From Nitrospira sp. (GTDB lineage: Bacteria; Nitrospirota; Nitrospiria; Nitrospirales; Nitrospiraceae): DNA of 64,000 nt. Location: positions 248,001-312,000 of the forward strand of contig JAUYAO010000058.1 in assembly GCA_030692565.1 (NCBI GenBank), in the 5' to 3' direction. A program made the translations under genes and the position numbers. Below, one piece after another: positions 605 to 31,968 of this stretch; the stretch's first letter is position 1, and each line of letters starts with the position of its first letter. Under the pieces are notes generated by a model. It saw only the letters and a list, made by a program, of their open reading frames with translations. It did not search any database and had not been told where the DNA came from.

Positions 605-1192
605 CTAGTCCACACCCAGATCAGCCATGAATGAAAATCGCGTCTTCATAGAGACACGAGCGCTCGCTGTGTAGTTGGGATGGTCAATGCTGATGGCCAC
701 TGGCACATACGGATTCCGCATCGGCTCAATGAGTTCCTCCGGTATCTGAAAGCGCACATAGTGAACGGCACTGATCTTTTCCTCGCTACTCCGCCCCCCT
801 TCGAAAACACCGTTGATCCTGTACGGTCCAATGCATATCGCGACCCACTGGCCTTGATCAATGCCGCGAAGCGCATCGAGGGACTCTTTGACCTTTTCAG
901 AATCCGTAATTTCGATGAACATCGTGGCGCTCAATTCGCCCGCCGCCGGCAAGAGCGCATTGTAAGCATCTACCTCTTCCTGAATCCGCTTAAGATCCAC
1001 AATCCCTTCCGCCCGGAGGATCTCATGAATTTGAAAGAGCAGTGTGTCGCGATTCTCAAACACAAGCGAAATACTTTCGCCGACCGTGATTCGGCGATAC
1101 TCCTTTAGTTCAATCACTCGACGTCGGACGAGCGTGCGCTCACGCTCATACTCCTCGCAAGCTTTCACATCTTCGATCCCTAAGGGCTGCAT
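605..1192 (-). CDS. DUF3501 family protein
   Basis: 195 residues, the usual length for DUF3501. Function is unknown. It is soluble, with no signal peptide and no metal-binding cysteine cluster. The ATG at 1192 is preferred over an upstream in-frame start because GAGGTG sits 6 bases before it and because it leaves only a 10-base gap after the Fe-S oxidoreductase stop. It is the last gene of a run rubrerythrin - Fe-S oxidoreductase - DUF3501, an arrangement that recurs in many bacteria and suggests a shared role in peroxide or oxygen handling. The family match rests on overall sequence character and context. Confidence 0.8.
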   Translation of the reverse strand: MQPLGIEDVKACEEYERERTLVRRRVIELKEYRRITVGESISLVFENRDTLLFQIHEILRAEGIVDLKRIQEEVDAYNALLPAAGELSATMFIEITDSEKVKESLDALRGIDQGQWVAICIGPYRINGVFEGGRSSEEKISAVHYVRFQIPEELIEPMRNPYVPVAISIDHPNYTASARVSMKTRFSFMADLGVD

Positions 1193-1202
1193 AATTGCAC
1201 CT

Positions 1203-2474
1203 CTACAATCCATATGCCTGCTGAATAACTTGAATGGGGTGAAGCGTCGGGGTCTTCCTGCCGCTAGCCTGATCAAGCTGGAGCGCGGCGAGGGGACAGT
1301 CAGACACGAAGAGATCCGGTTCGTTTTCAGACAACTGCCGAACCGCCTTGGACGCGATCTTCATGGACAAATCGAAAAACTCTACCTTGACGCCCCAGGT
1401 ACCATCATGTCCGGAACATCGCTCCACAAGCTCGACCGACGCCCCCGTGAGCTCCATCAGTTCTTTGGATTTAAAACCGATGTTTTGGTCTCGAAGATGG
1501 CAGGGCACCTGATATGAGATCTTCAAAGGCCGATGCTGAAACTCCATATTGAGAGCCCCTTGCCGTTTCATTCTCATGAGATACTCGCAGACATCGAACG
1601 TCCGTTCCGCAACCGCCTTGGCAAGATCACTTTTCAGCAGATGCGGGTATTCTCGCTTCAGCATGAGGCTGCAACTAGGGATCGGGGCGATGACGTCATA
1701 CCCCTGCAGAACCCACGGTTCTAGTTTCCGAAGATTTGCTTCCGCCTTCTTCTTAATCATGGCGATGTCACCCGTATCGAAGAAGGGCATGCCGCAACAT
1801 TCTTGCTCCGGCAACACCACTTCCACACCGTTCTTTTCCAAGACCTTGACTGTTGCCTGCCCAATCTCAGTGCAGTGGTAATTCACCGTGCAGGTGGAAA
1901 AGAGCGCGACCTTCCCCGTCGGCTGACGTGCGCCAGCAGAGCGGCCGTGAGCTGTACGCGTGCGACTCCACCAGCGAGAGAACGTTTCCGATTGAAACTG
2001 AACGAGGTGCCGATCGCGATGGATTCCCAGCAACGTATGCATGAGACGACGGATAAGCGGATTACCGTTCGCCCAATTCATCAACGGCGCCAAGAATGAT
2101 CCGACCTTCCCTATCAGATCTGTTCGAATAAGGATTCGGTCTCTCAAGGATGGCGATCGTTCCTCAGCATAAATCCGCTTCCACGTTACCATCAGCTGGG
2201 GAAAGTCGAGATCAAACTGATGCGGCGGCGTATAAGGACAGTGATTGAAGCAGAGTTTACAATAATAGCATTCGTCAACAACCTGTTGGGTATCCTGTGC
2301 GGTGAGTTTCTTGATGTCGCTATCAACGAGGTCCAATCGATCTAAGAGCGTGTTGAAGGAGGGACAGAGGTTGATGCATCGGCGACATCCGTCGCAAATA
2401 TCGAAGACCCGGAAGGTCTCTTTTTCAACAAGGGACCGGTCCAGCTTGAGGTCAGCGAAATCAAAACCCTTCAT
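1203..2474 (-). CDS. GlpC/HdrD-like Fe-S oxidoreductase
   Basis: 423 residues. The N-terminal half carries two 4Fe-4S ferredoxin motifs (CDGCRRCINLCP and CYYCKLCFNHCP). The C-terminal half has two cysteine-rich modules typical of GlpC/HdrD: a standard ECCGMPFFDTGD, and a second module (VPCHLRDQ ... CSGHDGTWG) where the usual CCG is CSG. No transmembrane segment is visible, so it is probably a cytoplasmic or peripheral electron carrier. A GTG five codons upstream is possible, but the ATG at 2474 has AAGGGG at good distance. It sits between rubrerythrin and DUF3501 and may pass electrons to rubrerythrin (inference). Confidence 0.85.
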   Translation of the reverse strand: MKGFDFADLKLDRSLVEKETFRVFDICDGCRRCINLCPSFNTLLDRLDLVDSDIKKLTAQDTQQVVDECYYCKLCFNHCPYTPPHQFDLDFPQLMVTWKRIYAEERSPSLRDRILIRTDLIGKVGSFLAPLMNWANGNPLIRRLMHTLLGIHRDRHLVQFQSETFSRWWSRTRTAHGRSAGARQPTGKVALFSTCTVNYHCTEIGQATVKVLEKNGVEVVLPEQECCGMPFFDTGDIAMIKKKAEANLRKLEPWVLQGYDVIAPIPSCSLMLKREYPHLLKSDLAKAVAERTFDVCEYLMRMKRQGALNMEFQHRPLKISYQVPCHLRDQNIGFKSKELMELTGASVELVERCSGHDGTWGVKVEFFDLSMKIASKAVRQLSENEPDLFVSDCPLAALQLDQASGRKTPTLHPIQVIQQAYGL

Positions 2475-2537
2475 CTCATCCCCTTCCACTCGAACGGGAT
2501 GGCATCCGTCATGCCATTCCCGTCCGTCGGTCAGCCA

Positions 2538-2960
2538 TTACCGTATCGACTCGAGTCCCTTGGTAAAGCGATTAGCATGAGACCGCTCAGCCTTCGCAAG
2601 GGTTTCAAACCACTCGCCCAGTTCAGGAAATCCCTCTTCGCGCGCCGTTTTCGCCATACCAGGGTACATTTGCGTATATTCGTAAGTCTCCCCTTCAATG
2701 GCAGATTTAAGGTTCGCGTCCGTATTGCCGATCGGAACTCCTGTTACCGGATCGCCAACATCTTTGAGAAAGTCAAGATGGCCAAAGGCATGGCCGGTTT
2801 CCGCCTCGGAAGTGTCTCGGAACAGTCCGCCCACATCCGGAAACCCTTCAATATCAGCGCGCCGCGCGAAGTAGAGGTACCGCCGGTTGGCTTGCGACTC
2901 CCCTGCAAAGGCTTCTTTCAGATTCTCGAAACTTTTGGTTTCTTTTAAAGTCTTTCCCAT
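2538..2960 (-). CDS. rubrerythrin (no rubredoxin domain)
   Basis: 140 residues with the ferritin-like diiron four-helix core: ExxR-type ligands in [31 protein letters not shown] and AERSHANRF. The C-terminal rubredoxin domain of classical rubrerythrin is missing, so an external electron donor is needed. The Fe-S oxidoreductase gene 63 bases downstream is a plausible source. Rubrerythrins reduce hydrogen peroxide in the cytoplasm. GGAGGAG lies 8 bases before the ATG. The katG and PerR-type genes upstream on the same strand support a peroxide-defence block. Confidence 0.9.
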
Positions 2961-3037
2961 GGCTCACTCCTCCTCATAATGGTGGTAAGGGGTCTCCTGA
3001 CACAGCTTCTTCACGACACTTCTTATGCTCTCACGGC

Positions 3038-3178
3038 CTAGGCCTTTCCCGAACGCAACGCTTCTACGGTCTCACTCAGCCGTCGCCCTTGGTCGGCATC
3101 CGCACTCCGAAAATAGCTCACCCTGCATTGCAGGACGTCGTCTCGATTGAGTTTCCCGGCAAGTGATCGCAAAGGCAT
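3038..3178 (-). CDS. possible 46-residue hypothetical protein
   Basis: An open frame begins MPLRSLAGKLNRDDVLQCRV and ends RSGKA-stop. An AGAGGA sequence stands 7 bases before the ATG. The protein is basic, with one cysteine and no signal peptide or recognised family. It fills the gap between katG and rubrerythrin on the same strand, 60 bases after the katG stop, so it could belong to the same transcript. Support is only the ribosome site, position and plausible composition. Confidence 0.4.
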   Translation of the reverse strand: MPLRSLAGKLNRDDVLQCRVSYFRSADADQGRRLSETVEALRSGKA

Positions 3179-3238
3179 TTCTTTTCCTCTGCGCTCCGCA
3201 ATCGCTAGAAATCCATTTCCTGGACGGCGACGTTATCC

Positions 3239-5467
<2,229 letters not shown>

Positions 5468-5615
5468 TTAATCGTCTGTTTCCCCGTTCAGCGTAGACGA
5501 ATTCCCCCGACGTACGTGGCACTTTTTGCCGAGACCGGCCCTTTCGATACCGCCACTTGAGAGTTCGAATGAGCGGGTGCGACTGCGCCTGCCTCTTTAC
5601 CCTGCTGGCTTGCGA

Positions 5616-6065
5616 CTAGACTGACCTCCCCTTGGATCGACATGACGCGCAGTACCCATGAAACTCCACGCGGTGCGAGCGAATTTCATACCCTTGCACG
5701 ATGCCGCCAGATGGCGTGAGTCGGTCTAACGCCTCGTCGTAGAAGTCATCGATTTTCCCGCATGCTAGACAGACTAAGTGATGATGGTACTCCATATTGG
5801 CATCGTATCGTGAAGGGCCGTGCTCAACGGGGACCTCCCATGCGAGGCCTGCCTCTTTCAGCGACGATAAGGTGTAGTACACGGTATTGAGAGACAGCAT
5901 TGGAAAGGTCGGCTTGATGGCTTGGTAGATTTCATCGGCTGTGGGATGCGTTTCCGTGCTCGTGAGCATCTGGTAGATAGCAAATCGCTGAGGGGTCAGC
6001 TTCATCCCCTTTTCCTGGAGCTGTCGGTGGAGCGCCTCAGGTTTTATATCTTGTCCCGATTTCAT
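5616..6065 (-). CDS. Fur-family regulator, PerR-like
   Basis: 149 residues. A winged-helix DNA-binding half (KLTPQRFAIYQML, DEIYQAIKPTFPMLSLNTVY) is followed by the metal-binding and dimerisation half with HHHLVCLACGKI and YCASC, the two CxxC pairs that hold structural zinc. Its place 172 bases upstream of katG, with rubrerythrin beyond, suggests a peroxide-sensing PerR rather than an iron-sensing Fur. Sequence alone does not prove which metal it senses. AGAGGAAAGG lies before the ATG. Two short inverted repeats stand upstream at 6093-6132 and may be its own operator. Confidence 0.85.
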   Translation of the reverse strand: MKSGQDIKPEALHRQLQEKGMKLTPQRFAIYQMLTSTETHPTADEIYQAIKPTFPMLSLNTVYYTLSSLKEAGLAWEVPVEHGPSRYDANMEYHHHLVCLACGKIDDFYDEALDRLTPSGGIVQGYEIRSHRVEFHGYCASCRSKGRSV

Positions 6066-6092: not shown

Positions 6093-6106
6093 TTCCTAAA
6101 CAGGAA
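6093..6106. promoter_or_regulatory. inverted repeat upstream of perR-like gene
   Basis: TTCCT-aaac-AGGAA is a perfect 5-4-5 inverted repeat 28 bases upstream of the PerR-like start codon. Position and symmetry fit an operator. No protein can be assigned from sequence. Confidence 0.35.
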
Positions 6107-6118
6107 TCGTCCTTGGTT

Positions 6119-6132
6119 TATTCCCGTGAATA
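6119..6132. promoter_or_regulatory. TATTC-N4-GAATA dyad, copy 1
   Basis: Reads TATTCACGGGAATA on the minus strand. The identical 14-mer occurs at 7331-7344 upstream of the next minus-strand operon. Both copies are in front of genes near the PerR-like regulator, so a shared operator is likely. The binding protein is unknown. Confidence 0.45.
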
Positions 6133-7226: not shown

Positions 7227-7544
7227 TAGTTAGATATAATTTTCATTCCGACATGCCAATTAAAAATATAAGTACTTGATTGTTAATGAACTTTGTGGCC
7301 GTAAAGGCTTTGTTTGAACGGTCGATTAATTATTCACGGGAATATTTACAGGATGCTGCCTGTTTAACGACCAGTGGGATCACCCTGTATTGCGAGCTAC
7401 TTGTCCTGCGGGAAGTTGTCCTAAGTTACGTACTTTGAGTAGCTCGAGGATGAGGGTTTGACAAGTTTCTGTTTTCTTTGTCCCCGCCAGCCGATCGATG
7501 ATGACCGGCTTGTGTGGGTCGCTTGACGGTCAACAGCGTATCCT
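7227..7544. other. non-coding stretch between divergent operons
   Basis: No convincing gene. It holds the end of the AT-rich tract, the 14-base dyad at 7331-7344, an ACAGG/CCTGT inverted repeat at 7348-7363, and a 9-bp inverted repeat CGAGCTACT/AGTAGCTCG (7393-7401 and 7438-7446). A TTGACA at 7458-7463 has no matching -10 box, so the promoter of the plus-strand nitrite operon remains unidentified. Confidence 0.5.
7331..7344. promoter_or_regulatory. TATTC-N4-GAATA dyad, copy 2
   Basis: TATTCACGGGAATA, identical to the copy upstream of the PerR-like gene at 6119-6132. It lies about 190 bases upstream of the histidine-rich exported gene and about 200 bases upstream of the nitrite-operon leader, so it could serve either side. 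Confidence 0.45.
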
Positions 7545-17287: not shown

Positions 17288-18856
17288 TCAGAATCGATAG
17301 TTCATTTCGATCAATCCCACTTGCATATTGTCAGCTTTCTGCGTCACCGGATTATTCCCCACACCCACCGTGGCCGCGGTCGGAGCTTCAAAGTAGTTCC
17401 CGGTAAAGAGGCATCCATAGGCCAGCACCGCCGAGAGGTCCTTGAGAATCTGGTAGCGGACAAAGATGTCAAGCTCCGTGCCGATAAAGTTTCCGCCCTT
17501 GGTAAACTGGGAGCCGCCGGCCGTGCTCTGGATCGCGCGATCGCGAGCGCTCCACACCGGCAAGACATCGCCCTCGATATTGAGCTTCGGCATGGTCGGC
17601 GGTGTGTAGTTGGCCGACACCTTGATGGCGGTCAGTCCCGATCCTCCGTAACACCCAGGCCGTCCCCCGAGCCCCCGTGCATCGGCCCAGCTTGGACAGG
17701 TCCCATCGATCGGGGCAGGCGAGCGCGCGCCCACGTTCATGGTGATGATACCCATGGTGTAGTTCCCGTTGATGCCGTTCATGTTCGCCCGCTTGCCGGA
17801 GCTCAAATCTCCTGCATCCTGGCCGGAGCTGTGCAGAAACGTGGCGCCCGCGTTAAGCCCTCCTCCCAAGTCCACATCTCCACTGAGCAGCAGGTTATAC
17901 CCTTGTAGAAGCGGAGCAGGACCGTTCGGGTTCTGCACCGTGCCCCGAATCAAATCCGCTTCAAAGGTGCTGTGAAAGTTTCCGCGCCGCAGTTCACCAG
18001 CCACTCCGTAGAGGCCGGCTTGCGCAGTCGCCGACCCGCCGAATCCCGCCAGGTTGGGATTCAATTGACTGATAAACGACGGGCCACGATCTTTGTACAA
18101 ACCGGCAAAGACATCGATCCGGAAATCTTTGTCCGGACTATATCGATAGTTTGCGATGTACAGATCCGTATCCCCTCCGGGCCCGCCGGCCGATCCGTTC
18201 CCGACAAACACGCCACCGACGCCTGCCGCACGCGTTGAATCCAGGATCTTCAGATTCGCCACGGTAACGGTGGAGGAGGAATCGAGCGGCACGTCCAAAC
18301 GGAATGCGTCGACCGCGTCTTGGACCAACAGCGCGTTGCCGATAGTAAAGATCTGCCGGCCTACCCTCAGGCTCACCTTGTTAAAATTGACTTGCAGGTA
18401 CGCCTGCAACATCGAGAATGTGTTTTGGGTACACCCCGTCCCGGTCCCTTCGTTTCCAACTCCGGTACAGCTGGTTGAGGCACTGCTGTCTGGGCCGAAG
18501 GCGACTTTCCCAAGGCGAGATTGCCCAGTTCCGTTGGAGCTGGTGAGAAACGGAGTAACGTGGCCTTCAACACTGATGGGTCCTTCTCCGCTGACGACGC
18601 TGACATCGAGCACATACCGCTGGATGTTGAACGCATTCGTATCTTTTCGTGAGTTGCTCGCGTCCGTCAGGTTATTGTTGTAGAAACCACGAATCCGATA
18701 ATCGCCGTTGATGGTGAATTTGGGGCTTAAACTGGAAGGACCGGAGAATTTTGGACCCGCACGGAAAGTGTCTTCCCATTCTTCGGCAAAGACCACTCCT
18801 CCCATACACCCGCTCACAATCAGAACGCCCAATGCGAAGCTCATTAACCTTTTCAT
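17288..18856 (-). CDS. outer-membrane beta-barrel protein (porin-like)
   Basis: 522 residues. Signal peptide MSFALGVLIVSGCMGGVVFA, then many alternating strands (RIRGFYNNN, VSLRVGRQIF, LDIFVRYQIL) with Gly/Ser/Asn-rich loops, ending in an aromatic strand LIEMNYRF as expected for barrel assembly. VGRQIFTIGN followed by an AVDAFRL-type stretch resembles alginate-export/anion porin families, but the substrate is unknown. A cysteine pair (CTGVGNEGTGTGC) lies in one loop and another (CPSWADARGLGGRPGC) further on. GAGGAGGG precedes the ATG at 18856. It is followed by the cupredoxin gene. Confidence 0.75.
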   Translation of the reverse strand: MKRLMSFALGVLIVSGCMGGVVFAEEWEDTFRAGPKFSGPSSLSPKFTINGDYRIRGFYNNNLTDASNSRKDTNAFNIQRYVLDVSVVSGEGPISVEGHVTPFLTSSNGTGQSRLGKVAFGPDSSASTSCTGVGNEGTGTGCTQNTFSMLQAYLQVNFNKVSLRVGRQIFTIGNALLVQDAVDAFRLDVPLDSSSTVTVANLKILDSTRAAGVGGVFVGNGSAGGPGGDTDLYIANYRYSPDKDFRIDVFAGLYKDRGPSFISQLNPNLAGFGGSATAQAGLYGVAGELRRGNFHSTFEADLIRGTVQNPNGPAPLLQGYNLLLSGDVDLGGGLNAGATFLHSSGQDAGDLSSGKRANMNGINGNYTMGIITMNVGARSPAPIDGTCPSWADARGLGGRPGCYGGSGLTAIKVSANYTPPTMPKLNIEGDVLPVWSARDRAIQSTAGGSQFTKGGNFIGTELDIFVRYQILKDLSAVLAYGCLFTGNYFEAPTAATVGVGNNPVTQKADNMQVGLIEMNYRF

Positions 18857-18908
18857 CGGCACCCTCCTCTCGGTCACAATGATCTCTGGTCTTGACGGCA
18901 GAATACAA

Positions 18909-18943
18909 AAGCCCATCCTCGGGTATCACTCCGGGATGGGCTT
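18909..18943 (-). terminator. hairpin between Zn-ribbon gene and porin gene
   Basis: AAGCCCATCC (18909-18918) pairs perfectly with GGATGGGCTT (18934-18943). It follows the minus-strand operon that ends at 19013 and precedes the porin start at 18856. The downstream T-run on the minus strand is short (TTTTGTATT), enough to support a Rho-independent terminator. Confidence 0.7.
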
Positions 18944-19012
18944 CTGAGCCTCGACGGGCTTCTGAGTCTCAATGGGTCAGGTGCAAGTTACCGATTGGCA
19001 TATCTACGTCGG

Positions 19013-19210
19013 CTATGAACCTCTTCCTTGCTCCAGCTTCAAAAGGTTCAACTGCTGGCATCGTGGACATTTGACTTCGACTTGAGACGATCCGCTCATC
19101 TCCCATCGCAAGAGCAGACGCCCGCACCGCATGCATCGCACTTCCTTGAAGGCGAGGCCAGGCGTGGGTCTTGTGCCGTCCGCTTGAGGAGGTCCGGCCC
19201 CGCTGGCCAT
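19013..19210 (-). CDS. small Com-like zinc-ribbon protein
   Basis: 65 residues with one zinc ribbon: VRCMRCGRLLLRW ... VEVKCPRCQQLNLL, a CxxC-CxxC pair spaced and flanked as in the Mu Com family. Such proteins bind RNA or protein partners; the role here is unknown. GGGAGA precedes the ATG. It is the last gene of a five-gene operon, two bases after the coiled-coil gene, and a terminator follows. Confidence 0.75.
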   Translation of the reverse strand: MASGAGPPQADGTRPTPGLAFKEVRCMRCGRLLLRWEMSGSSQVEVKCPRCQQLNLLKLEQGRGS

Positions 19211-19212
19211 GG

Positions 19213-19497
19213 TTATTTCTCCCGAGCCTGATGCTCGAATGGATGCGTTCCCACCTGTGGCGCCACAGCCGAAGAGCCATAGCGATACCTACAGCCAAGC
19301 TGCTTCGACATCCGCTCTTCATACCTCTTGATCAAGTCGTCAAGTTCCCGCTGCATCCGTTTCAGATCGATCATGTCCCAGTCGTACCCCTTCGCTTCGA
19401 CCAATTGCCGCATATCATTGAAGCGGCGCTCAGCCATTTCAATCTTATACTTCAGTTCCAAGGTCTCCGAAGACACGCCGACTGGTCGGTTTGCCAC
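19213..19497 (-). CDS. small coiled-coil protein
   Basis: 94 residues. Almost the whole N-terminal two-thirds is charged amphipathic helix (SSETLELKYKIEMAERRFND and RMQRELDDLIKRYEERMSKQ), probably a coiled coil. No signal peptide, no family recognised. The GTG at 19497 is favoured since GGAGGAG lies 7 bases upstream; a TTG two codons earlier is too close to it. It lies two bases after the exported protein and two before the Zn-ribbon gene, so it is clearly cotranscribed. Confidence 0.65.
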   Translation of the reverse strand: MANRPVGVSSETLELKYKIEMAERRFNDMRQLVEAKGYDWDMIDLKRMQRELDDLIKRYEERMSKQLGCRYRYGSSAVAPQVGTHPFEHQAREK

Positions 19498-19499
19498 GA

Positions 19500-20141
19500 T
19501 CAACTCCTCCCTCTCTGTACCCGTAACCAGAAATTACCATCCGGAAACTTTCCCCCGTAGTACAGGTCCGTAGCGGAAGGGGACGGAACTCCCGGAGTTC
19601 GGAACGAGAATTCCGCCTTCAAGTTGCCGTCCCGCGATGCAACTTCGTACAGATCATAGGGCGGCTCCTGGTGGTGGGTCATGTTGGTAACTCTCCACCC
19701 CTGATGATCCAATGCGGTAAGAAACTGCTGAAATTGGTCTGTCGTGAGCGATGTGAATAGGTTTTCAAAGTCGCTGCGTAAGTCATCCCACATTGCATGG
19801 GATTCGCCCTGCTTGATTCGCTTTAACACAGAATCCCGGTCAAACCGAAACGACGCCACCACCCGGCCTTCGAGTTCCAAAGGCAATGCCAGGGGATGGT
19901 ACTTAGTCTGGAACCACACCACCAAGACAGAGGGCGATTTTCCGGCTTGAAATCCAGCTTTAGGCGGGAGCTCGATCGAGCCCGGCAAAGCGGGCGGGCC
20001 ATGCTTCATGATCATTTCCATTCCCGTATCTCCGGGGAAGGCCGCTGCCCTGGAGGGAAATCCCCCCAAAGCAGCGATGAGCCCTATAACCAAAAACCAA
20101 CTGATACGCGGCTTGTCGCTCTGTGATTCTGGCAGTTCCAT
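19500..20141 (-). CDS. exported hypothetical protein
   Basis: 213 residues. Signal sequence FLVIGLIAALGGFPSRAAAF after a charged N-region. The mature protein contains VLVVWFQTKYHPLALPLELE, a helical stretch around DDLRSDFENLFTSLTTDQFQ and a C-terminal region with FSFRTPGVPSPSATDLYYGG. There is no cysteine, haem motif or known domain. GAGGAG precedes the ATG at 20141. Third gene of the operon with metallophosphoesterase and cytochrome c, so a periplasmic partner of those is likely (inference). Confidence 0.65.
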   Translation of the reverse strand: MELPESQSDKPRISWFLVIGLIAALGGFPSRAAAFPGDTGMEMIMKHGPPALPGSIELPPKAGFQAGKSPSVLVVWFQTKYHPLALPLELEGRVVASFRFDRDSVLKRIKQGESHAMWDDLRSDFENLFTSLTTDQFQQFLTALDHQGWRVTNMTHHQEPPYDLYEVASRDGNLKAEFSFRTPGVPSPSATDLYYGGKFPDGNFWLRVQRGRS

Positions 20142-20209
20142 ATGGCGATCTCCTCGTTGTCCAATGCTCAGAAAAGATACAATGGCGCAGACTGTGCCCG
20201 CCATCTGCG

Positions 20210-20722
20210 TCAAGAATTCGAAGGCGCAGCCCCAATCTCCATCACCTGACCCCTGTTGTTCCAGTTCATATAGGCTTCAAGGGCATTCATTTCCTTGCTG
20301 CCTAAGGCATACGGTTTCCCCTGATTCGGAATCGCAATACACCAGCCCATCATCTGCTGGATGGTGGCAACCTGCCCAATCTGCGGCTTATACTTCGGGT
20401 ACGTTTCCGGATGTGTCACCGAGCCATCCGCGTGACACATGTTGCAGGCTTGACCATTTCCACTCATCGGTAAGTCACGGCTGTGCCAGAGCTTGTCGCC
20501 CAGCGCGATCATTTCCTGCAATTCTTTCGTGCCGGTTTCAACCGTCTTACGGTCAAGAATCTCCCCGCTTTGAGCGTCTTTTCGCTGTCCCTCAGACGAG
20601 AGTCCCGGCAACGCTTGCACATCCATGGCCCGCTGGGCATAGACCCACATCGGGACCGACATGACACAGGCTCCGATCGCCATCAACGCGATCTGCTTCA
20701 CTGATACACTTTTTTTCATCAT
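20210..20722 (-). CDS. monoheme c-type cytochrome
   Basis: 170 residues. Signal peptide IALMAIGACVMSVPMWVYAQ, one haem-binding CNMCH (Cys93, Cys96, His97), with several Met residues after it (QQMMGWCIAIPN) available as axial ligand. Fold resembles a class I cytochrome c with KEMNALEAYMNWNNRG near the end, similar to SoxX-like or DHH-type small cytochromes. GGGGAGG precedes the ATG. It starts 16 bases after the metallophosphoesterase stop. Its partner and electron route are unknown. Confidence 0.85.
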   Translation of the reverse strand: MMKKSVSVKQIALMAIGACVMSVPMWVYAQRAMDVQALPGLSSEGQRKDAQSGEILDRKTVETGTKELQEMIALGDKLWHSRDLPMSGNGQACNMCHADGSVTHPETYPKYKPQIGQVATIQQMMGWCIAIPNQGKPYALGSKEMNALEAYMNWNNRGQVMEIGAAPSNS

Positions 20723-20738
20723 CACACCTCCCCTTCAA

Positions 20739-21755
20739 TCAGGCCTTCGTCCGTGACCACTCTTCATACTTAATGCCTACTTCGCCTTGGTCGTCGACGC
20801 CCATCGTGTCCCAGCCCAGGCCCCCGAAGACATTGCCTGGATTGGCACGCGGCATCTTCGGTGAACCCGCCGGCAATCCGCTCGATGGATAGGGATGCGG
20901 CCAGCCCGTCGAGAGGCTGCTGGCGAATTTGATGTTGCCAATCTGGTTCTTCACGATGTGATGCACATGCCCGTGAATCACCTGGACGTGTTCGTACCCA
21001 TCCAACAACAGGTGGACTTCACCGGCGTCTTCAGTCCAGAAGTTCCAGGGCTTGTAGTAGTAGTACAAGGGAGAATGCGAGAAGATGATAATGGGCGTGT
21101 TTTTCTTGACGCTCTTAAGATCGTCGCGCAACCAAAGCAATTGCTTTTCCCCCACATGAAAAGGACCAGGCAACGGGTGATTCAACGTACCGGCAATATC
21201 CATGCGCTCTTGGGCCGACAGCCCTCTGGCTGTCCAGAAGTCCCGAAGCACGACGGTGTTCAACGCCACGAAATGCACGCCGTTGTGATTCCACGAGTAG
21301 GTCGTCTTGCCATAATGTTTCCCGTAGGATTCCCCCATATCGAGGTACCAATCGTGCTCTCCCGTGATGTACTTCACCGGCGCCTTCAGCGGGGCAATCA
21401 GCTCATCGAAGTACTTCATTTGTTCATCCGAACCATCATGCACCACATCTCCAAGTGACATGATGAAATCGGGCTTAACGCTTAAATTATTGATCTCTTG
21501 CACGCACCGCTCAACCCGCATCTTCATGTAGTTATTTTTCGGCCCCATCGTATGGTGATCCGCCATCACCGCAAAGGTGAATGGCTTCCCCATTCCCGCT
21601 CCCACGCTTTGAGCCTGCACAGTGGAAGGAGACAGGAAATCCAACGACACGAGCCCGCCAAGCGATGCCGCAAGGCCGGTAAACGCAGACATCTTCATAA
21701 AATCCCGGCGAGAGAGTCCGTCTCCCACAAGGTCTTCTTCATGTTGTTTCTTCAT
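20739..21755 (-). CDS. Tat-exported metallophosphoesterase
   Basis: 338 residues. Twin-arginine signal (GLSRRDFMKMSAFTGLAASL), then a calcineurin-like fold with metal-site motifs ADHHTMG, SLGDVVHDGS, GEHDWYLD (Glu in place of the usual Asn of GNHD), FSHSPLYYY and HGHVHHIV. Tat export implies folding with metal bound before reaching the periplasm. The substrate is unknown; purple-acid-type phosphatases and nucleotidases are relatives. GGAGGG precedes the ATG at 21755. It is the first gene of an operon with cytochrome c and is preceded by an ECF-type promoter at 22001-22028. Confidence 0.88.
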   Translation of the reverse strand: MKKQHEEDLVGDGLSRRDFMKMSAFTGLAASLGGLVSLDFLSPSTVQAQSVGAGMGKPFTFAVMADHHTMGPKNNYMKMRVERCVQEINNLSVKPDFIMSLGDVVHDGSDEQMKYFDELIAPLKAPVKYITGEHDWYLDMGESYGKHYGKTTYSWNHNGVHFVALNTVVLRDFWTARGLSAQERMDIAGTLNHPLPGPFHVGEKQLLWLRDDLKSVKKNTPIIIFSHSPLYYYYKPWNFWTEDAGEVHLLLDGYEHVQVIHGHVHHIVKNQIGNIKFASSLSTGWPHPYPSSGLPAGSPKMPRANPGNVFGGLGWDTMGVDDQGEVGIKYEEWSRTKA

Positions 21756-22000
21756 AGGTCCCTCCAATTCTCCCCACCTACACCTTACGATTGGATTCGA
21801 GCGTTGCCATTAACGACACCGACTCACCGCATCAATGCACTCGACGGTCCGACACTATGCGTGCGATTTCCTCCTTTCGTTGAAACATCGGCCGCCATGA
21901 TTCGTCTCCATCCATCTTGACTTCTCACATCCACACGCCTGTGACGTTCGCGGAATGACTCGTAGTGTGCACCCTCCGCTCACAGGCGCGTAATATACCC
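21756..22000 (-). other. 5' leader between ECF promoter and metallophosphoesterase
   Basis: About 240 bases without a clear gene. A 27-codon frame (ATG at 21915, MDGDESWRPMFQRKEEIARI, stop at 21832) with a GAGAAG upstream could be a short translated leader, but support is slight. Confidence 0.25.
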
Positions 22001-22028
22001 GTAACAGACAAGGTCCGTGTTTTATTCC
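22001..22028 (-). promoter_or_regulatory. ECF-type promoter of the metallophosphoesterase operon
   Basis: On the minus strand GGAATAAAAC (22019-22028), 13 bases, then GTTAC (22001-22005). The same elements with the same spacing occur upstream of the ECF sigma gene at 23909-23936. GGAAT-type -35 boxes are typical for ECF sigma factors. It lies about 245 bases upstream of the first gene of the operon. Bases 22029-22243 beyond it hold no recognisable gene. Confidence 0.65.
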
Positions 22029-22243
22029 TGTTCAACGAGCAGAATGGATGCGGGACAAATCTTTCAGCGGCAGATCGGATAGGTGGAGGACAAGTGCGGC
22101 AAGGAATGCGGCATACCGCTCCCTTCTACTTTCCTGACATTCATCGCGCCACACGATGTCCTTGCGCCATGGTAAGGCAGCGAAAAAAGGAAACCGTTGT
22201 GGAGACTGAAGAAGTGGGGTACGGAGGCAAAGAGGAAACGAGG

Positions 22244-23074
22244 CTACATGGACCGCACGGCAGAGTGGCCGCCAGAAGACTTCAAATCCCTACTGCTGGT
22301 ATGGCAAATTAGGCAAGCTTGCTTGTTCAACTCCTGGGCATCGGACACAAAGACGTAGGCCATTCCTTCGAGCGACCAACTCAGCGTCTGGAGTCCATGG
22401 TAAGAGGACTGGTAGAAGCGAACGTCTTTGTCCACCATTTCCTGACCGCCAAAAAGCTTTACGCCCTGCGCAGCCGTGATGACCAGAGAGAGGGGATGCC
22501 CTCCCACGTCATACGCGACAAATACGGCTTTTTGGCCATTCACTTCAACCAATCTTCCTCCCAAGAGATTCAGATTCTTCACCGGGGCCTGAGTGAGTGA
22601 CACTGTAAATCCAGCTTGTTCTTGAAGCCAGCGAGATACTTCAGCTGGCTCATGGCTGTGGATGTTCAATTGAAGACTTTTAGATGCATAGCGCTCATGC
22701 GTTGCCACAGCCGCGCCAACAATATCCGGCACAACTGGGTTGCCAACAAACAGCTGCATCGCTACAACGACTACGCCAGCCAGCACGGCAACCGCTGACG
22801 CCGGAACAGCGATCCGCCTGAACCATGCTCGCGGTTTTTCCCGCCGACAGACCGTGTCTAAAGCCTGCTTCACTTTTGCCTCGAGCCCGATCGGCGCATG
22901 CGAGCGCGGGATCGATTTTCTCAGCAAATCAAGAAACAGCTTTTCGTTCCGATACAACGCCGTACAGGCGGAACAGTTATCCAGATGAGACTGAATCTCC
23001 ACCGCATCTCGTGTGAACAACTCTCCGTCCAGATACGAGTGAAGAAATCGCTGCATTTCCTGACAATCAAGCAT
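22244..23074 (-). CDS. membrane anti-sigma factor with C-terminal CxxCH
   Basis: 276 residues. N-terminal zinc-finger anti-sigma domain: Cys4, His30, Cys34, Cys37 (HLDNCSAC). One membrane helix at about 88-110 (VPASAVAVLAGVVVVAMQLF). The periplasmic domain (about 111-276) has no family I recognise and ends with KQACLICHTSSRD: Cys254, Cys257 and His258 make a CxxCH, the covalent haem c attachment motif. This is unusual for an anti-sigma factor and suggests redox or haem sensing. The gene overlaps the ECF sigma gene by 8 bases, so the two are translated together and it most likely holds that sigma factor inactive. Confidence 0.85.
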   Translation of the reverse strand: MLDCQEMQRFLHSYLDGELFTRDAVEIQSHLDNCSACTALYRNEKLFLDLLRKSIPRSHAPIGLEAKVKQALDTVCRREKPRAWFRRIAVPASAVAVLAGVVVVAMQLFVGNPVVPDIVGAAVATHERYASKSLQLNIHSHEPAEVSRWLQEQAGFTVSLTQAPVKNLNLLGGRLVEVNGQKAVFVAYDVGGHPLSLVITAAQGVKLFGGQEMVDKDVRFYQSSYHGLQTLSWSLEGMAYVFVSDAQELNKQACLICHTSSRDLKSSGGHSAVRSM

Positions 23075-23723
23075 CGTGACTAAGCCTCTTCACATCCGAC
23101 TTCACACGTGGTCCTTGGTTCGTATAAGCGCACAGTATCTGTCGCAGAATATCCCTTCCTCGCGAGAGCCTGGACATTACCGTTCCTATTGGACAGTCCA
23201 ACATCTGAGCCATCTCACTGTAACTAAATCCTTCCACATCACACAGCAAGACCACGACTCGAAACGAATCGGGAAGCAGGTCTAGCGCTTTCACAACATC
23301 CTGTCGGAAAACCTCATCCCTCCCGCCGAAGGTATTATCAACCAGAACAGAATGGTACTCAAGAAATTCACTGCCCCCCCCTCCTTCCTGATCTTCTCGG
23401 TCCGGACACAACACCTCCCGAGCCCGCTGCGGAATCTGGTTCAGGAAAATTCTCTTCATGATCGTAAATAACCAAGCTTTGCAATTTGTTCCTTCCTGAT
23501 ACCGGTGATAAAACTGCAACGCCCTGACGTACGTGTCCTGGACCAAGTCTTCCGCTTCGTTCGGTCGGCCCGTGAGCACAAGGGCGAACCCATACAGCGC
23601 ATCCAGGTACAAAAGTGCGGACGACTCAAAGGCTGCTCGCTGCTTTTCGAGGTCCATGGAGACCTTACCCAATGATTCTGATAAGCTCCGCTCGTCCAAT
23701 GTGTCTGGCAGCCCTTCATTCAT
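23067..23723 (-). CDS. ECF-family RNA polymerase sigma factor
   Basis: 218 residues from the ATG at 23723; a GTG at 23735 is an alternative and neither has a clear ribosome site. Region 2 (LYGFALVLTGRPNEAEDLVQ, then DTYVRALQFYHRY) and region 4 (LDLLPDSFRVVVLLCDVEGF, YSEMAQMLDCPIGTVMSRLS) are complete. Between them is a glycine-rich linker (REDQEGGGGSEF). Overlaps the anti-sigma gene. An element identical to that of the metallophosphoesterase operon lies upstream, implying autoregulation and control of that operon. Confidence 0.92.
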   Translation of the reverse strand: MNEGLPDTLDERSLSESLGKVSMDLEKQRAAFESSALLYLDALYGFALVLTGRPNEAEDLVQDTYVRALQFYHRYQEGTNCKAWLFTIMKRIFLNQIPQRAREVLCPDREDQEGGGGSEFLEYHSVLVDNTFGGRDEVFRQDVVKALDLLPDSFRVVVLLCDVEGFSYSEMAQMLDCPIGTVMSRLSRGRDILRQILCAYTNQGPRVKSDVKRLSHDA

Positions 23724-23908
23724 TCGCCAGCGCACCCGCGATCTACGCCGATAGCCTGATTCAAAACCTCCACTCTCAAATTAGCAATACGACCGTATGC
23801 AGGGACTACATAACAGGAAAGCGCCACAACCATGTCCGTGTCCAGATGCAACTTAGCCCCCAACCCTTTGCGCGACAGGCCATAGCCCATAACACTTTCC
23901 TTACACTT

Positions 23909-23936
23909 GTAACAGTTGAGAGCAGAGTTTTATTCC
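23909..23936 (-). promoter_or_regulatory. ECF-type promoter of the sigma/anti-sigma operon
   Basis: Minus strand: GGAATAAAAC (23927-23936), 13 bases, GTTAC (23909-23913), the same as at 22001-22028. It lies about 185 bases upstream of the sigma start. The remaining bases between 23724 and 24045 show no gene. Confidence 0.65.
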
Positions 23937-29859: not shown

Positions 29860-30777
29860 TCATCGTCCCTCCGACGCCACACGCTTCAGGCCTGGTATCT
29901 TCAGTGCCCGCACGGCATCTGAAACCGCATCAACCGCCTGAGGACGAGTAAATCCTCTCCGCCAGGCCAATCCGATCCGCCGGCCGGGGACCGGCTTCGC
30001 CAAATCGATCGCAACCAGCCGCTTGTTCTCGTGTTTCGTTGTCAACGCGCTACACGGCAACACGGTAATTCCCAGCCCTGAGGCAACCATTTGGCGAATC
30101 GTCTCCAGAGAATTCCCTTGCCATCCCTCAGCATCGGATCGGCTCAGCTCGGGACAAGTATCCAGCACCTGCTGCCGGAAGCAATGCCCGGCATGCGGCA
30201 AGAGGACTTTCTCCGCCCCCAGTTGGCGCGAATCGATTGACTTCTTTTTCTGCCACGGATGGCCGACAGGGACGAGGGCTTTAAACGGTTCATCATACAA
30301 GGCCCGCGTGACGATCCCGGGCTCCTCCAACGGCAGCGCGATCATAATCACATCGAGCTTCCCGCTCTTCAGCATGGCCACCAGATGAAGCGTCAAATTT
30401 TCTTCGATTTCCAGCGGCATCAGTGGGGCACGCTTGTTCAGCAGAGGGACAAGATCCGGCAGGACGTAGGGCCCGACCGTTGCAATGGCCCCGAAACGGA
30501 GCGGGCCGACCAGCTGATCTTTCCCCTGAGCGGCAATCACTCGAATCTGATCGGCTTCTTCCAACACGCGCTGGGCTTGATGAACAATTCGCTCACCCAA
30601 GACAGTCAACGTGAGGTGATGCTTGCGCCGCTCAAAGATCATCGTCCCGAGCTCGTCCTCCAGCTTCTGGATCGCCAAGCTCAGAGCAGGTTGACTCACG
30701 CAGCATCGTTCGGAAGCGCGGCCAAAATGCCGATCCTGAGCCAGCGCGACAAGATAGCGAAGTTCTGTGAACGTCAT
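29860..30777 (-). CDS. oxyR: OxyR-type LysR regulator
   Basis: 305 residues. LysR helix-turn-helix (HFGRASERCCVSQPALSLAI) then the sensor domain with GHCFRQQVLDTC: the cysteines fall at residues 199 and 208, exactly the redox pair of E. coli OxyR. It senses hydrogen peroxide by disulfide formation and activates transcription. It is divergent from a cytochrome c peroxidase gene, the likely target, and the shared upstream region has an ATCGAT-flanked dyad. Confidence 0.92.
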   Translation of the reverse strand: MTFTELRYLVALAQDRHFGRASERCCVSQPALSLAIQKLEDELGTMIFERRKHHLTLTVLGERIVHQAQRVLEEADQIRVIAAQGKDQLVGPLRFGAIATVGPYVLPDLVPLLNKRAPLMPLEIEENLTLHLVAMLKSGKLDVIMIALPLEEPGIVTRALYDEPFKALVPVGHPWQKKKSIDSRQLGAEKVLLPHAGHCFRQQVLDTCPELSRSDAEGWQGNSLETIRQMVASGLGITVLPCSALTTKHENKRLVAIDLAKPVPGRRIGLAWRRGFTRPQAVDAVSDAVRALKIPGLKRVASEGR

Positions 30778-30894: not shown

Positions 30895-31968
30895 ATGAAG
30901 AAACACACATCGTATTTCTCTTTGTTCGTTGTTTCGTTCCTGGCACTCAGCGGGGTCGGAGGGTCGGGGGTGTCGCAGTTCGCCTACGCTGAAGCCGGAC
31001 CCGGTTCTGGTACGGATTACAAACTCCCTCAGATCCAAGGCTTGGAGGATCCCAACACCTTTGTACCGGCGGACAACCCTCTGACCGCTAAGAAAGTCGA
31101 ATTGGGCCGCCTACTGTTTTTCGACAAGCGCCTTTCGAAAAACGACACAATCGCCTGCGCCAGCTGCCACCTGCCAGGCAACGGCTTCACCGACGGCAAA
31201 GCCGTTTCGACCGGCATCAACGGATTGAAAGGCGGGCGTAGCGCACCCTCTTCCTTCAACCGGGTATTTAGCAAGGCACAATTCTGGGATGGCCGTGCCG
31301 AAACACTCGAGGAGCAATCCATTGGGCCGTTCGTCAGCCCGGTCGAGCATGGGTTCAACAACCATGACGAAATGATCGTAAAGATGAAGAAGAACCCGGG
31401 ATACCGAAAACTCTTTCAAGAAGTATTCGGCCGCGAGATCGTGATCGAGGATGTGGGCAAGGCCATCGCGAGCTTTCAACGGACCATTCTCTCCGGCAAC
31501 AGCGCCGTCGACCGATTCGATCTTGGCGGTGATGAGAAGGCCTTGTCGGAATCGGCGAAGCGCGGATTAGAGCTGTTCCGCGGCAAAGCCCGTTGCACTC
31601 GCTGCCATTCGGGCTTCAACTTCACGGACGAGAAATTCCATAATCTTGGCATCGGCTGGGACACCAACACCGTGGATCTCGGCCGCTATATGGTCACGAA
31701 GAATCCGGAAGACATCGGCGCCTTCAAGACACCGACGCTGCGGGAGATCGCGAGAACAGCCCCCTATATGCACGATGGGCGGTTCAAGACGCTGGAAGCC
31801 GTGGTGAAGTTTTATAACCAGGGGGGCATCAAGAACCCGCATCAGGACAACACGATCATTCCACTCGAACTGACCGAGCAGGAACAACAGGACGTCGTGG
31901 CGTTACTGAAATCGCTGAACGGCGAAGGCTGGCAGCAGGTCACGGCCCCGAAGACATTCCCGAAGTAA
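30895..31968 (+). CDS. ccpA: diheme cytochrome c peroxidase
   Basis: 357 residues. Signal peptide, then two haem c motifs: CASCH (Cys88, Cys91, His92) and CTRCH (Cys234, Cys237, His238), with CcpA/MauG features FFDKRLSKNDTIACASCH, FVSPVEHGF and TPTLREIARTAPYMHDGRF. It reduces periplasmic hydrogen peroxide with electrons from small cytochromes or cupredoxins. AAAGGAG precedes the ATG. A terminator follows. OxyR encoded divergently is the likely activator. Confidence 0.94.
   Translation: MKKHTSYFSLFVVSFLALSGVGGSGVSQFAYAEAGPGSGTDYKLPQIQGLEDPNTFVPADNPLTAKKVELGRLLFFDKRLSKNDTIACASCHLPGNGFTDGKAVSTGINGLKGGRSAPSSFNRVFSKAQFWDGRAETLEEQSIGPFVSPVEHGFNNHDEMIVKMKKNPGYRKLFQEVFGREIVIEDVGKAIASFQRTILSGNSAVDRFDLGGDEKALSESAKRGLELFRGKARCTRCHSGFNFTDEKFHNLGIGWDTNTVDLGRYMVTKNPEDIGAFKTPTLREIARTAPYMHDGRFKTLEAVVKFYNQGGIKNPHQDNTIIPLELTEQEQQDVVALLKSLNGEGWQQVTAPKTFPK

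Follow-up and report, generated by a model that had tools for sequence, protein, structure and literature searches.

A candidate heme-motif anti-sigma switch with SigH/SigR-type promoters in Nitrospira

The described regulatory systems that most resemble the one considered here are the oxidative-stress systems of the ECF12 type (ECF, extracytoplasmic function), namely SigH-RshA of Mycobacterium and SigR-RsrA of Streptomyces, in which the anti-sigma factors RshA and RsrA are soluble proteins. We analyzed a 64-kb stretch (the window) of a 4.17-Mb Nitrospira genome that carries an ECF sigma gene paired with a gene for a zinc-binding anti-sigma factor, as well as an operon encoding a Tat-exported metallophosphoesterase (MPE) and a cytochrome c. 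This locus resembles the SigH and SigR systems in its promoter type and in a sigma factor closest to the SigH_actino model, and it shares with RsrA and RshA an HxxxCxxC zinc domain with an extra N-terminal cysteine and a redox/peroxide regulon. In contrast to those systems, the anti-sigma factor is membrane-bound and has a periplasmic domain and a CxxCH motif, the proteins score under the family cut-offs, and the targets are cytochrome/MPE and PerR-KatG-rubrerythrin genes. The switch would work like the SigH/SigR and RsiW-type systems, but it fails the curated cut-offs for SigH and RsrA.

Parallels for the membrane topology exist elsewhere. The RsiW-SigW system of Bacillus shares the zinc anti-sigma domain and the single transmembrane (TM) segment. 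The RseA/RseB-RpoE and MucA/MucB-AlgU systems likewise have a one-TM anti-sigma factor, and the C-terminal domain of RseB or MucB may resemble the periplasmic domain found here; the RseB-like part forms a protein of its own in RseA/RseB. We know of no C-terminal CxxCH in RsiW, RseA/RseB, or MucA/MucB. The nearest conceptual precedent is the sCache_heme family (DUF3365/Tll0287), which comprises extracytoplasmic Cache sensors with an acquired CxxCH motif for c-type heme, some of which bind NO and signal while others seem redox-related (PMC12889525). Those proteins differ in having a Cache fold and in their outputs, which are kinases, chemoreceptors, and cyclic-di-GMP enzymes, and the term “sigma factor” is absent from the main text of that paper.

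Anammox bacteria, Kryptonia, and Methylomirabilota have CCP/MauG-MPE-SoxA-like cytochrome clusters, in which homologs of the MPE and the cytochrome keep this gene order. Most of those clusters include a diheme CCP and lack a sigma/anti-sigma pair, whereas the CCP of the window genome is encoded elsewhere, beside an OxyR-like gene (30895-31968). The open-access literature searched yielded neither a description nor a name for this MPE-cytochrome module, nor a c-heme anti-sigma factor, although either may exist in papers outside that library. The initial annotation knew of no described system with this composition, and the search likewise turned up none.

Comparisons were made with 147 genomes of the family Nitrospiraceae and 345 of the phylum Nitrospirota. 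The loci cited most often are those of N. moscoviensis (L019), of genome G002 from another genus (L017), of the NS_8 metagenome-assembled genome (MAG; L020), and of two Kryptonia contigs (L038 and L039). Pfam and NCBIfam models were scored against their family cut-offs, and patterns sought in the window genome were compared with a control pattern. The sigma unit and the MPE operon consist of the following features.

23909-23936, minus strand: candidate ECF promoter of the sigma/anti-sigma operon, GGAATAAA-N14-TGTTAC; orthologous sites L019:7999 and L017:6895
23067-23735, minus strand: ECF sigma factor, SigH/SigR-like (PF04542 8.9e-14, PF08281 9.3e-14; NCBIfam TIGR02947); orthologs in L017 and L019
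22244-23074, minus strand: membrane anti-sigma factor with a zinc domain, one TM segment, a possibly RseB-C-like periplasmic domain, and a C-terminal CxxCH (PF13490 9e-8, TIGR03988, AF2 model)
22001-22028, minus strand: candidate ECF promoter of the MPE-cytochrome operon, GGAATAAA-N14-TGTTAC; orthologous sites L019:9800, L017:8777, and L020:494
20739-21767, minus strand, likely start 21755: Tat-exported metallophosphoesterase-fold protein (PF00149 6.7e-16, TAT signal)
20210-20725, minus strand: monoheme cytochrome c, SoxA/TsdA type (PF21342 1.3e-10)
19500-20213, minus strand, likely start 20141: exported protein without a family; orthologs in L017, L019, and L020
19213-19503, minus strand, likely start 19497: small charged coiled-coil-like protein; orthologs in the same order in L017, L019, and L020
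19013-19210, minus strand: Com-type zinc ribbon protein (PF10122 1.1e-7); orthologs in L017, L019, and L020
about 18905-18946, minus strand: intrinsic terminator past the zinc ribbon gene (hairpin of -27.8 kcal/mol, z -4.9, then UUUU)

These genes are as the initial annotation had described them, both for the sigma/anti-sigma pair, with its zf-HC2 domain and single TM segment, and for the five-gene operon. The intergenic gaps of 2-68 nt that it reported hold with the conserved start codons of the exported and coiled-coil proteins. The terminator it placed at the operon's end is real as a fold, and a simple terminator scanner did not list the hairpin.

In the 222-amino-acid sigma factor, PF04542 and PF08281 (regions 2 and 4 without regions 1 and 3, as in group 4 sigma factors) are the sole non-overlapping domains above cut-off. 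Its top NCBIfam model is TIGR02947 (SigH_actino), which gives 151 bits where the cut-off is 251, and thus the protein resembles SigH but is not classed as SigH by the family model. The orthologs in L017 and L019 are 61-69% identical. Its start is uncertain among GTG 23735, ATG ~23720, and ATG 23657, with either of the latter two most likely.

The promoter element carries much of the evidence for a shared regulon. It had initially been written as GGAATAAAAC-N13-GTTAC, and both perfect copies lie where they had been noted, upstream of the two units. With up to three mismatches allowed, this pattern has 3 matches in the window versus 0.54 in shuffles of it, and its perfect form occurs only twice in the entire genome. 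One further match with a single mismatch, at C52:18942, has no CTGTT and was discarded. A more accurate form of the conserved promoter is GGAATAAA-N13-CTGTTW. The genomes of the window and of N. moscoviensis each contain exactly three exact matches to GGAATAAA-N14-TGTYW, upstream of the sigma, MPE, and PerR-like units, and G002 has exact matches at its MPE and PerR units, with a sigma site that reads GGAATATA-N14-TGTTA. The control pattern has no match in any of these three genomes, and other genomes of the family contain on average ~0.26 matches each to GGAATAAA-N14-TGTYW. In an anchored comparison of nine sites, the core letters are 93-100% identical, the spacers 41-69%, and the flanks 26-34%.

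The SigH consensus of M. tuberculosis, derived experimentally, is GGAAYR-N17/18-GTT (PMC4803200), and promoters of the SigH/SigR type are also given as GGAAT/GTTG (PMC5005934). The element described here is GGAATA-N17-GTT, which matches the SigH consensus, and three genomes have it at each of the three units. Because the element fits this consensus and the best model for the sigma factor is SigH_actino, the promoter type and the sigma type agree independently. Beyond the phylum, four Kryptonia genomes carry GGAATAAA-N14-TGTC upstream of a CCP-MPE operon. Also, G290, from another family of the class Nitrospiria, has GGAATATT-N14-TGTTTA upstream of its own pair of genes for a sigma factor and a CxxCH anti-sigma factor.

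Two copies of an element could, taken alone, stem from duplication. However, only the promoter letters are conserved and not the spacers or flanks, and the genome-wide specificity, the match to a known SigH consensus, and the recurrence of the element in Kryptonia likewise speak against chance or inherited repeats devoid of regulatory meaning, an explanation to which we give almost no credence. Genome-wide scans and footprinting largely ruled out a chance origin of the repeated element. The initial annotation proposed that the sigma factor drives both its own unit and the MPE-cytochrome operon, and this proposal has strong support from the footprinting, the consensus match, and synteny. It is very probable, judging from these sequence comparisons, that the two units form a regulon whose promoters the sigma factor would recognize.

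A looser pattern, GGAATA-N16-TGTYW, was used to seek further targets in the genome, but the extra matches were near the control level except for one at 7339-7365 on the plus strand. This near-match, GGAATATT-N14-TGTTT, lies between exported-protein genes and a molybdopterin-oxidoreductase-like gene, and could be a fourth promoter or a chance occurrence. No RNA elements were detected in the long leaders at Rfam gathering thresholds.

The account in the initial annotation was nevertheless incomplete, because a third unit encoding a PerR-like regulator, KatG, and rubrerythrin was absent from it. The genes run in the order PerR-katG-rubrerythrin-Fe-S oxidoreductase-DUF3501 at 605-6065 on the minus strand.

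6097-6124, minus strand: third candidate ECF promoter, before the PerR-like gene, GGAATAAA-N14-TGTTTA; shared by the N. moscoviensis and G002 orthologs
5616-6065, minus strand: PerR-like Fur-family regulator (PF01475 6.6e-30; NCBIfam PerR model)
3239-5443, minus strand: KatG catalase-peroxidase (TIGR00198, 1218 bits)
2538-2960, minus strand: rubrerythrin (PF02915 5.7e-30)
1203-2489, minus strand: Fe-S oxidoreductase with CCG domains, past rubrerythrin (PF02754); same order in L020
605-1276, minus strand: DUF3501 protein (PF12007 4.2e-57)

The regulator is called only PerR-like since its top NCBIfam model, PerR, scores 137.8 bits against a cut-off of 180. The counterpart in N. moscoviensis is PerR-rubrerythrin, without katG in the orthologous stretch. 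The NS_8 MAG has PerR-rubrerythrin-Fe-S oxidoreductase on the contig with the MPE operon, and katG is missing from that stretch as well.

Assignment of this unit to the regulon must be weighed against the possibility that its upstream site is solely a PerR operator, such that the true regulon comprises only the sigma unit and the MPE operon. Within the third site, CTGTTTAGGAA falls on a sequence like a PerR operator that relatives also have, ATTCCTGTYTAGG recurs at the PerR-type genes of relatives without the sigma factor, and the PerR gene of the NS_8 MAG carries a sigma70-type promoter instead. Among nearly 30 PerR-type genes from such sigma-less relatives, most have a TAGGAATCATTCCT palindrome beneath a sigma70-like promoter, and most show the sigma70-like TATRTAGGAAT where GGAATAAA would stand. 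Although the TGTTTA of the third site overlaps this inherited operator, GGAATAAA with a spacing of exactly 14 nt appears only alongside the sigma factor, and does so in all three sigma-bearing Nitrospira-type genomes. We therefore regard the operator-only explanation as rather unlikely, and conclude that the PerR-like unit probably belongs to the regulon. Control of the PerR-like gene itself is likely, and the position of katG and rubrerythrin behind it suggests that they would follow its transcription.

Upstream of PerR-type genes in many Nitrospiraceae (e.g., L123-L150), a conserved TATRTAGGAATCATTCCTR palindrome lies over the sigma70-like promoter. This palindrome is likely a PerR operator, and one unlike the classical PerR box of Bacillus.

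The most telling feature of the locus is the CxxCH of the anti-sigma factor, which the initial annotation did no more than mention. The relevant segments of the gene are listed below.

22964-22987, minus strand: HxxxCxxC zinc motif (H30, C34, C37), with C4 present too (translation, alignment)
22757-22813, minus strand: TM helix, residues 88-106 (Kyte-Doolittle maximum 2.51)
22301-22315, minus strand: codons for C-L-I-C-H (residues 254-258), putative periplasmic c-type heme attachment site; near-C-terminal CxxCH in 11 of 11 sequences

The zinc domain matches PF13490 (zf-HC2) at 32.5 bits, above the cut-off of 22.2, and both the HxxxCxxC motif and the zf-HC2 fold of a ZAS domain are present. The RsrA model TIGR03988 gives 46.3 bits, below its cut-off of 62.5, and there is a TM segment; the protein is thus not an RsrA equivalog. 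The CxxCH sits on the final helix, after the TM segment and hence on the extracytoplasmic side. From this topology, it is plausible that the anti-sigma factor senses an envelope signal. The AF2 model has a pLDDT of 70-90 in the periplasmic core and 60 overall, and the zinc domain resembles RsiW (5wuq; Z 7.0).

A search for anti-sigma factors with a C-terminal CxxCH covered the phylum Nitrospirota and MPE-bearing genomes. The motif is near-terminal in all 11 sequences recovered, which derive from four Nitrospirota with this cluster (the NS_8 sequence is partial), three genomes from other Nitrospiria families (G265, G273, and G290), and four Kryptonia. Relatives of the anti-sigma factor in other genomes lack a near-terminal CxxCH; those in Brocadia and Planctomycetota have a CxxCH within the N-terminal zinc motif rather than at the C terminus and were left out of the count. 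In a tree, the CxxCH anti-sigma factors cluster at 83/89 support, save for one long branch and one motif-less paralog in G265 (L166) that falls within the CxxCH set.

Heme attachment to this motif is more probable than the alternatives considered here, but the motif could instead be a thiol or metal site. Under that explanation the regulon is the same, and the anti-sigma factor is a thiol or metal sensor that uses its C-terminal CxxCH as a redox-active dithiol or to hold Zn or Cu. The evidence for heme is at the level of the motif, and C4, H30, C34, and C37 are kept in the Nitrospirota anti-sigma factors, as is compatible with an RsrA-like thiol switch. Genes for a Com-type zinc ribbon and a cupredoxin-like protein are also nearby. 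However, the His of CxxCH is invariant in all 11 sequences and would be needless for a plain dithiol, the linked genes encode cytochromes and diheme peroxidases, and a gene for a cytochrome c assembly protein (PF01578) lies within the same syntenic block. We judge a dithiol or metal site to be a minority possibility, though one of some weight.

The periplasmic domain raises another possibility, in which the protein acts like RseB/MucB by sensing envelope damage (for example, lipids or outer-membrane proteins in the wrong place) and the sigma factor is freed through regulated proteolysis. The heme motif would then be secondary or structural. The best structural neighbors of the modeled domain are indeed RseB/MucB C-terminal domains (Foldseek E 6e-3, probability 1.0), and a porin gene with conserved synteny lies past the operon. 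Yet the Z score of 8.0 is in the tool's middling range, where unrelated matches also occur, and no Pfam match to the RseB/MucB C-terminal domain was found in the anti-sigma factor. The resemblance in fold is accordingly suggestive only. Moreover, the CxxCH is invariant, and the regulon includes cytochrome and peroxide-defence genes rather than envelope chaperones or proteases. Sensing of envelope damage in this manner is quite unlikely.

The initial annotation had proposed looking for the same gene order and the same element in relatives, and both were found. N. moscoviensis and G002 preserve the order of all nine genes, from the sigma gene to the cupredoxin-like gene, and the element precedes the orthologous units in both. 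The NS_8 MAG retains the end of the anti-sigma gene followed by genes for the MPE, cytochrome, exported protein, coiled coil, zinc ribbon, and porin. Between genera, the MPE and cytochrome are 86-89% identical, versus 57-69% for the sigma and anti-sigma factors. Among the 147 Nitrospiraceae genomes, the anti-sigma factor and MPE occur together at high identity only in the window genome and G002, which rules out a system widespread in Nitrospira. The further carriers are N. moscoviensis and a basal MAG. In the 345 genomes of the phylum, a CxxCH anti-sigma factor is present in 5, a full-length MPE in 8, and both in 4 (P = 6e-7, uncorrected for kinship).

Outside the phylum, Myxococcota, Planctomycetota/anammox bacteria, Kryptonia, Methylomirabilota, and Polaromonas have the MPE together with the cytochrome, and a diheme CCP/MauG gene often precedes the two. 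In the four Kryptonia CCP-MPE operons the cytochrome gene comes next in three, and the remaining contig ends in the MPE gene. Two of these loci, L038 and L039, from this distant phylum, have a divergent sigma/anti-sigma pair beside CCP-MPE-cytochrome, and the anti-sigma factor ends in CxxCH.

Several observations weigh against the heme-based explanation or limit its reach. Confidence in the anti-sigma model is low overall, and the CxxCH helix has a pLDDT of 57 and less. No invariant distal ligand stands out except H126, which is also found in anti-sigma factors without CxxCH. The MPE operons of G265 and G273 have no such promoter element, and G290 has a CxxCH anti-sigma factor without the MPE. 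When co-occurrence is collapsed to families, P rises to ~0.008, with the number of families being assumed. Finally, many genomes encode CCP-MPE-cytochrome without a CxxCH anti-sigma factor, and therefore the enzyme module does not need the switch. As most MPE-cytochrome genomes are of this kind, a general tie between the two was ruled out.

The MPE scores above the PF00149 cut-off, and its D, GD, and SH metal-site motifs are invariant, with GHxH in 6 of 7 aligned sequences (alignment A3). In all seven, however, GEHDW replaces the usual GNHD/E, and therefore its activity is uncertain; many Trp and Tyr residues are invariant. The MPE gene often adjoins a MauG-like gene, and the MPE might conceivably undergo a modification of the MauG type. 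The cytochrome scores 41.6 bits with PF21342 (cut-off 27) and has the SoxA/TsdA domain with a single CxxCH, but its score is below the SoxA equivalog cut-off, and it is therefore not SoxA. Its motif CxMCH...THPETxPK...WC is invariant across phyla, and the second invariant Cys aligns with a Cys of SoxA (1h31) and TsdA (4wq7) that is the heme ligand in those proteins. The exported protein has no Pfam or NCBIfam match, and apparent homologs, read from translations, are encoded 3′ of MPE-cytochrome in L173 and L174. Two more syntenic genes follow the terminator.

17288-18916, minus strand, start likely 18856: outer-membrane porin-like protein; orthologs 50-82% identical in L017, L019, and L020
16727-17275, minus strand: exported protein, cupredoxin-like by inspection, without a Pfam match; 55% identical in L017 and L019

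A diheme MauG/MbnH/CCP-type gene (30895-31968, plus strand) is divergent from an OxyR-like LysR gene (29860-30777, minus strand), 7 kb from the sigma cluster, and in Kryptonia and anammox bacteria the MPE operon itself includes a homolog of this diheme gene. In addition, related ECF/anti-sigma pairs without CxxCH (L164:8912-10182 and L165:5984-7256, from G406 and G338) are closely followed by genes for cytochromes with 12 CxxCH motifs, suggesting that this ECF lineage has a wider tie to cytochromes.

Taken as a whole, the locus is best explained, with moderate confidence, as a heme-motif anti-sigma switch whose SigH/SigR-type promoters control three units. Redox or peroxide stress in the periplasm, or possibly NO, would change the state of a heme at the anti-sigma factor's periplasmic end, and the zinc domain of this protein would then let the sigma factor go. 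We favor an oxidative signal over NO or the redox state of quinones or cytochromes only tentatively. Once free, the sigma factor would use the GGAATAAA-N13-CTGTTW promoters to transcribe its own operon, the operon for the MPE, cytochrome c, exported protein, coiled coil, and zinc ribbon, and the gene for the PerR-like regulator, which katG and rubrerythrin follow. The outcome would be a joint response that combines envelope redox functions with peroxide defence.

There is perhaps an even chance that these proteins represent a class of anti-sigma factor with covalent c-type heme in Nitrospirota and Kryptonia. One membrane protein would then directly link a periplasmic heme, as a sensor of peroxide, NO, or redox state, to the freeing of a SigH-type sigma factor, and that factor would govern both peroxide defence and a cytochrome/MPE operon. 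Pairs of ECF sigma and anti-sigma factors are among the commonest bacterial signaling systems, and if this reading is correct, covalent heme would count among the cofactors through which sigma factors are controlled. The CCP-MPE-SoxA-like cytochrome module, widespread yet unnamed, also gains its first regulatory context. N. moscoviensis carries the whole system, and the predictions of three promoters and one heme can be tested there. If they hold, Nitrospira-type nitrite oxidizers, which live with oxygen, nitrite, and NO, would be found to possess a periplasmic redox alarm.

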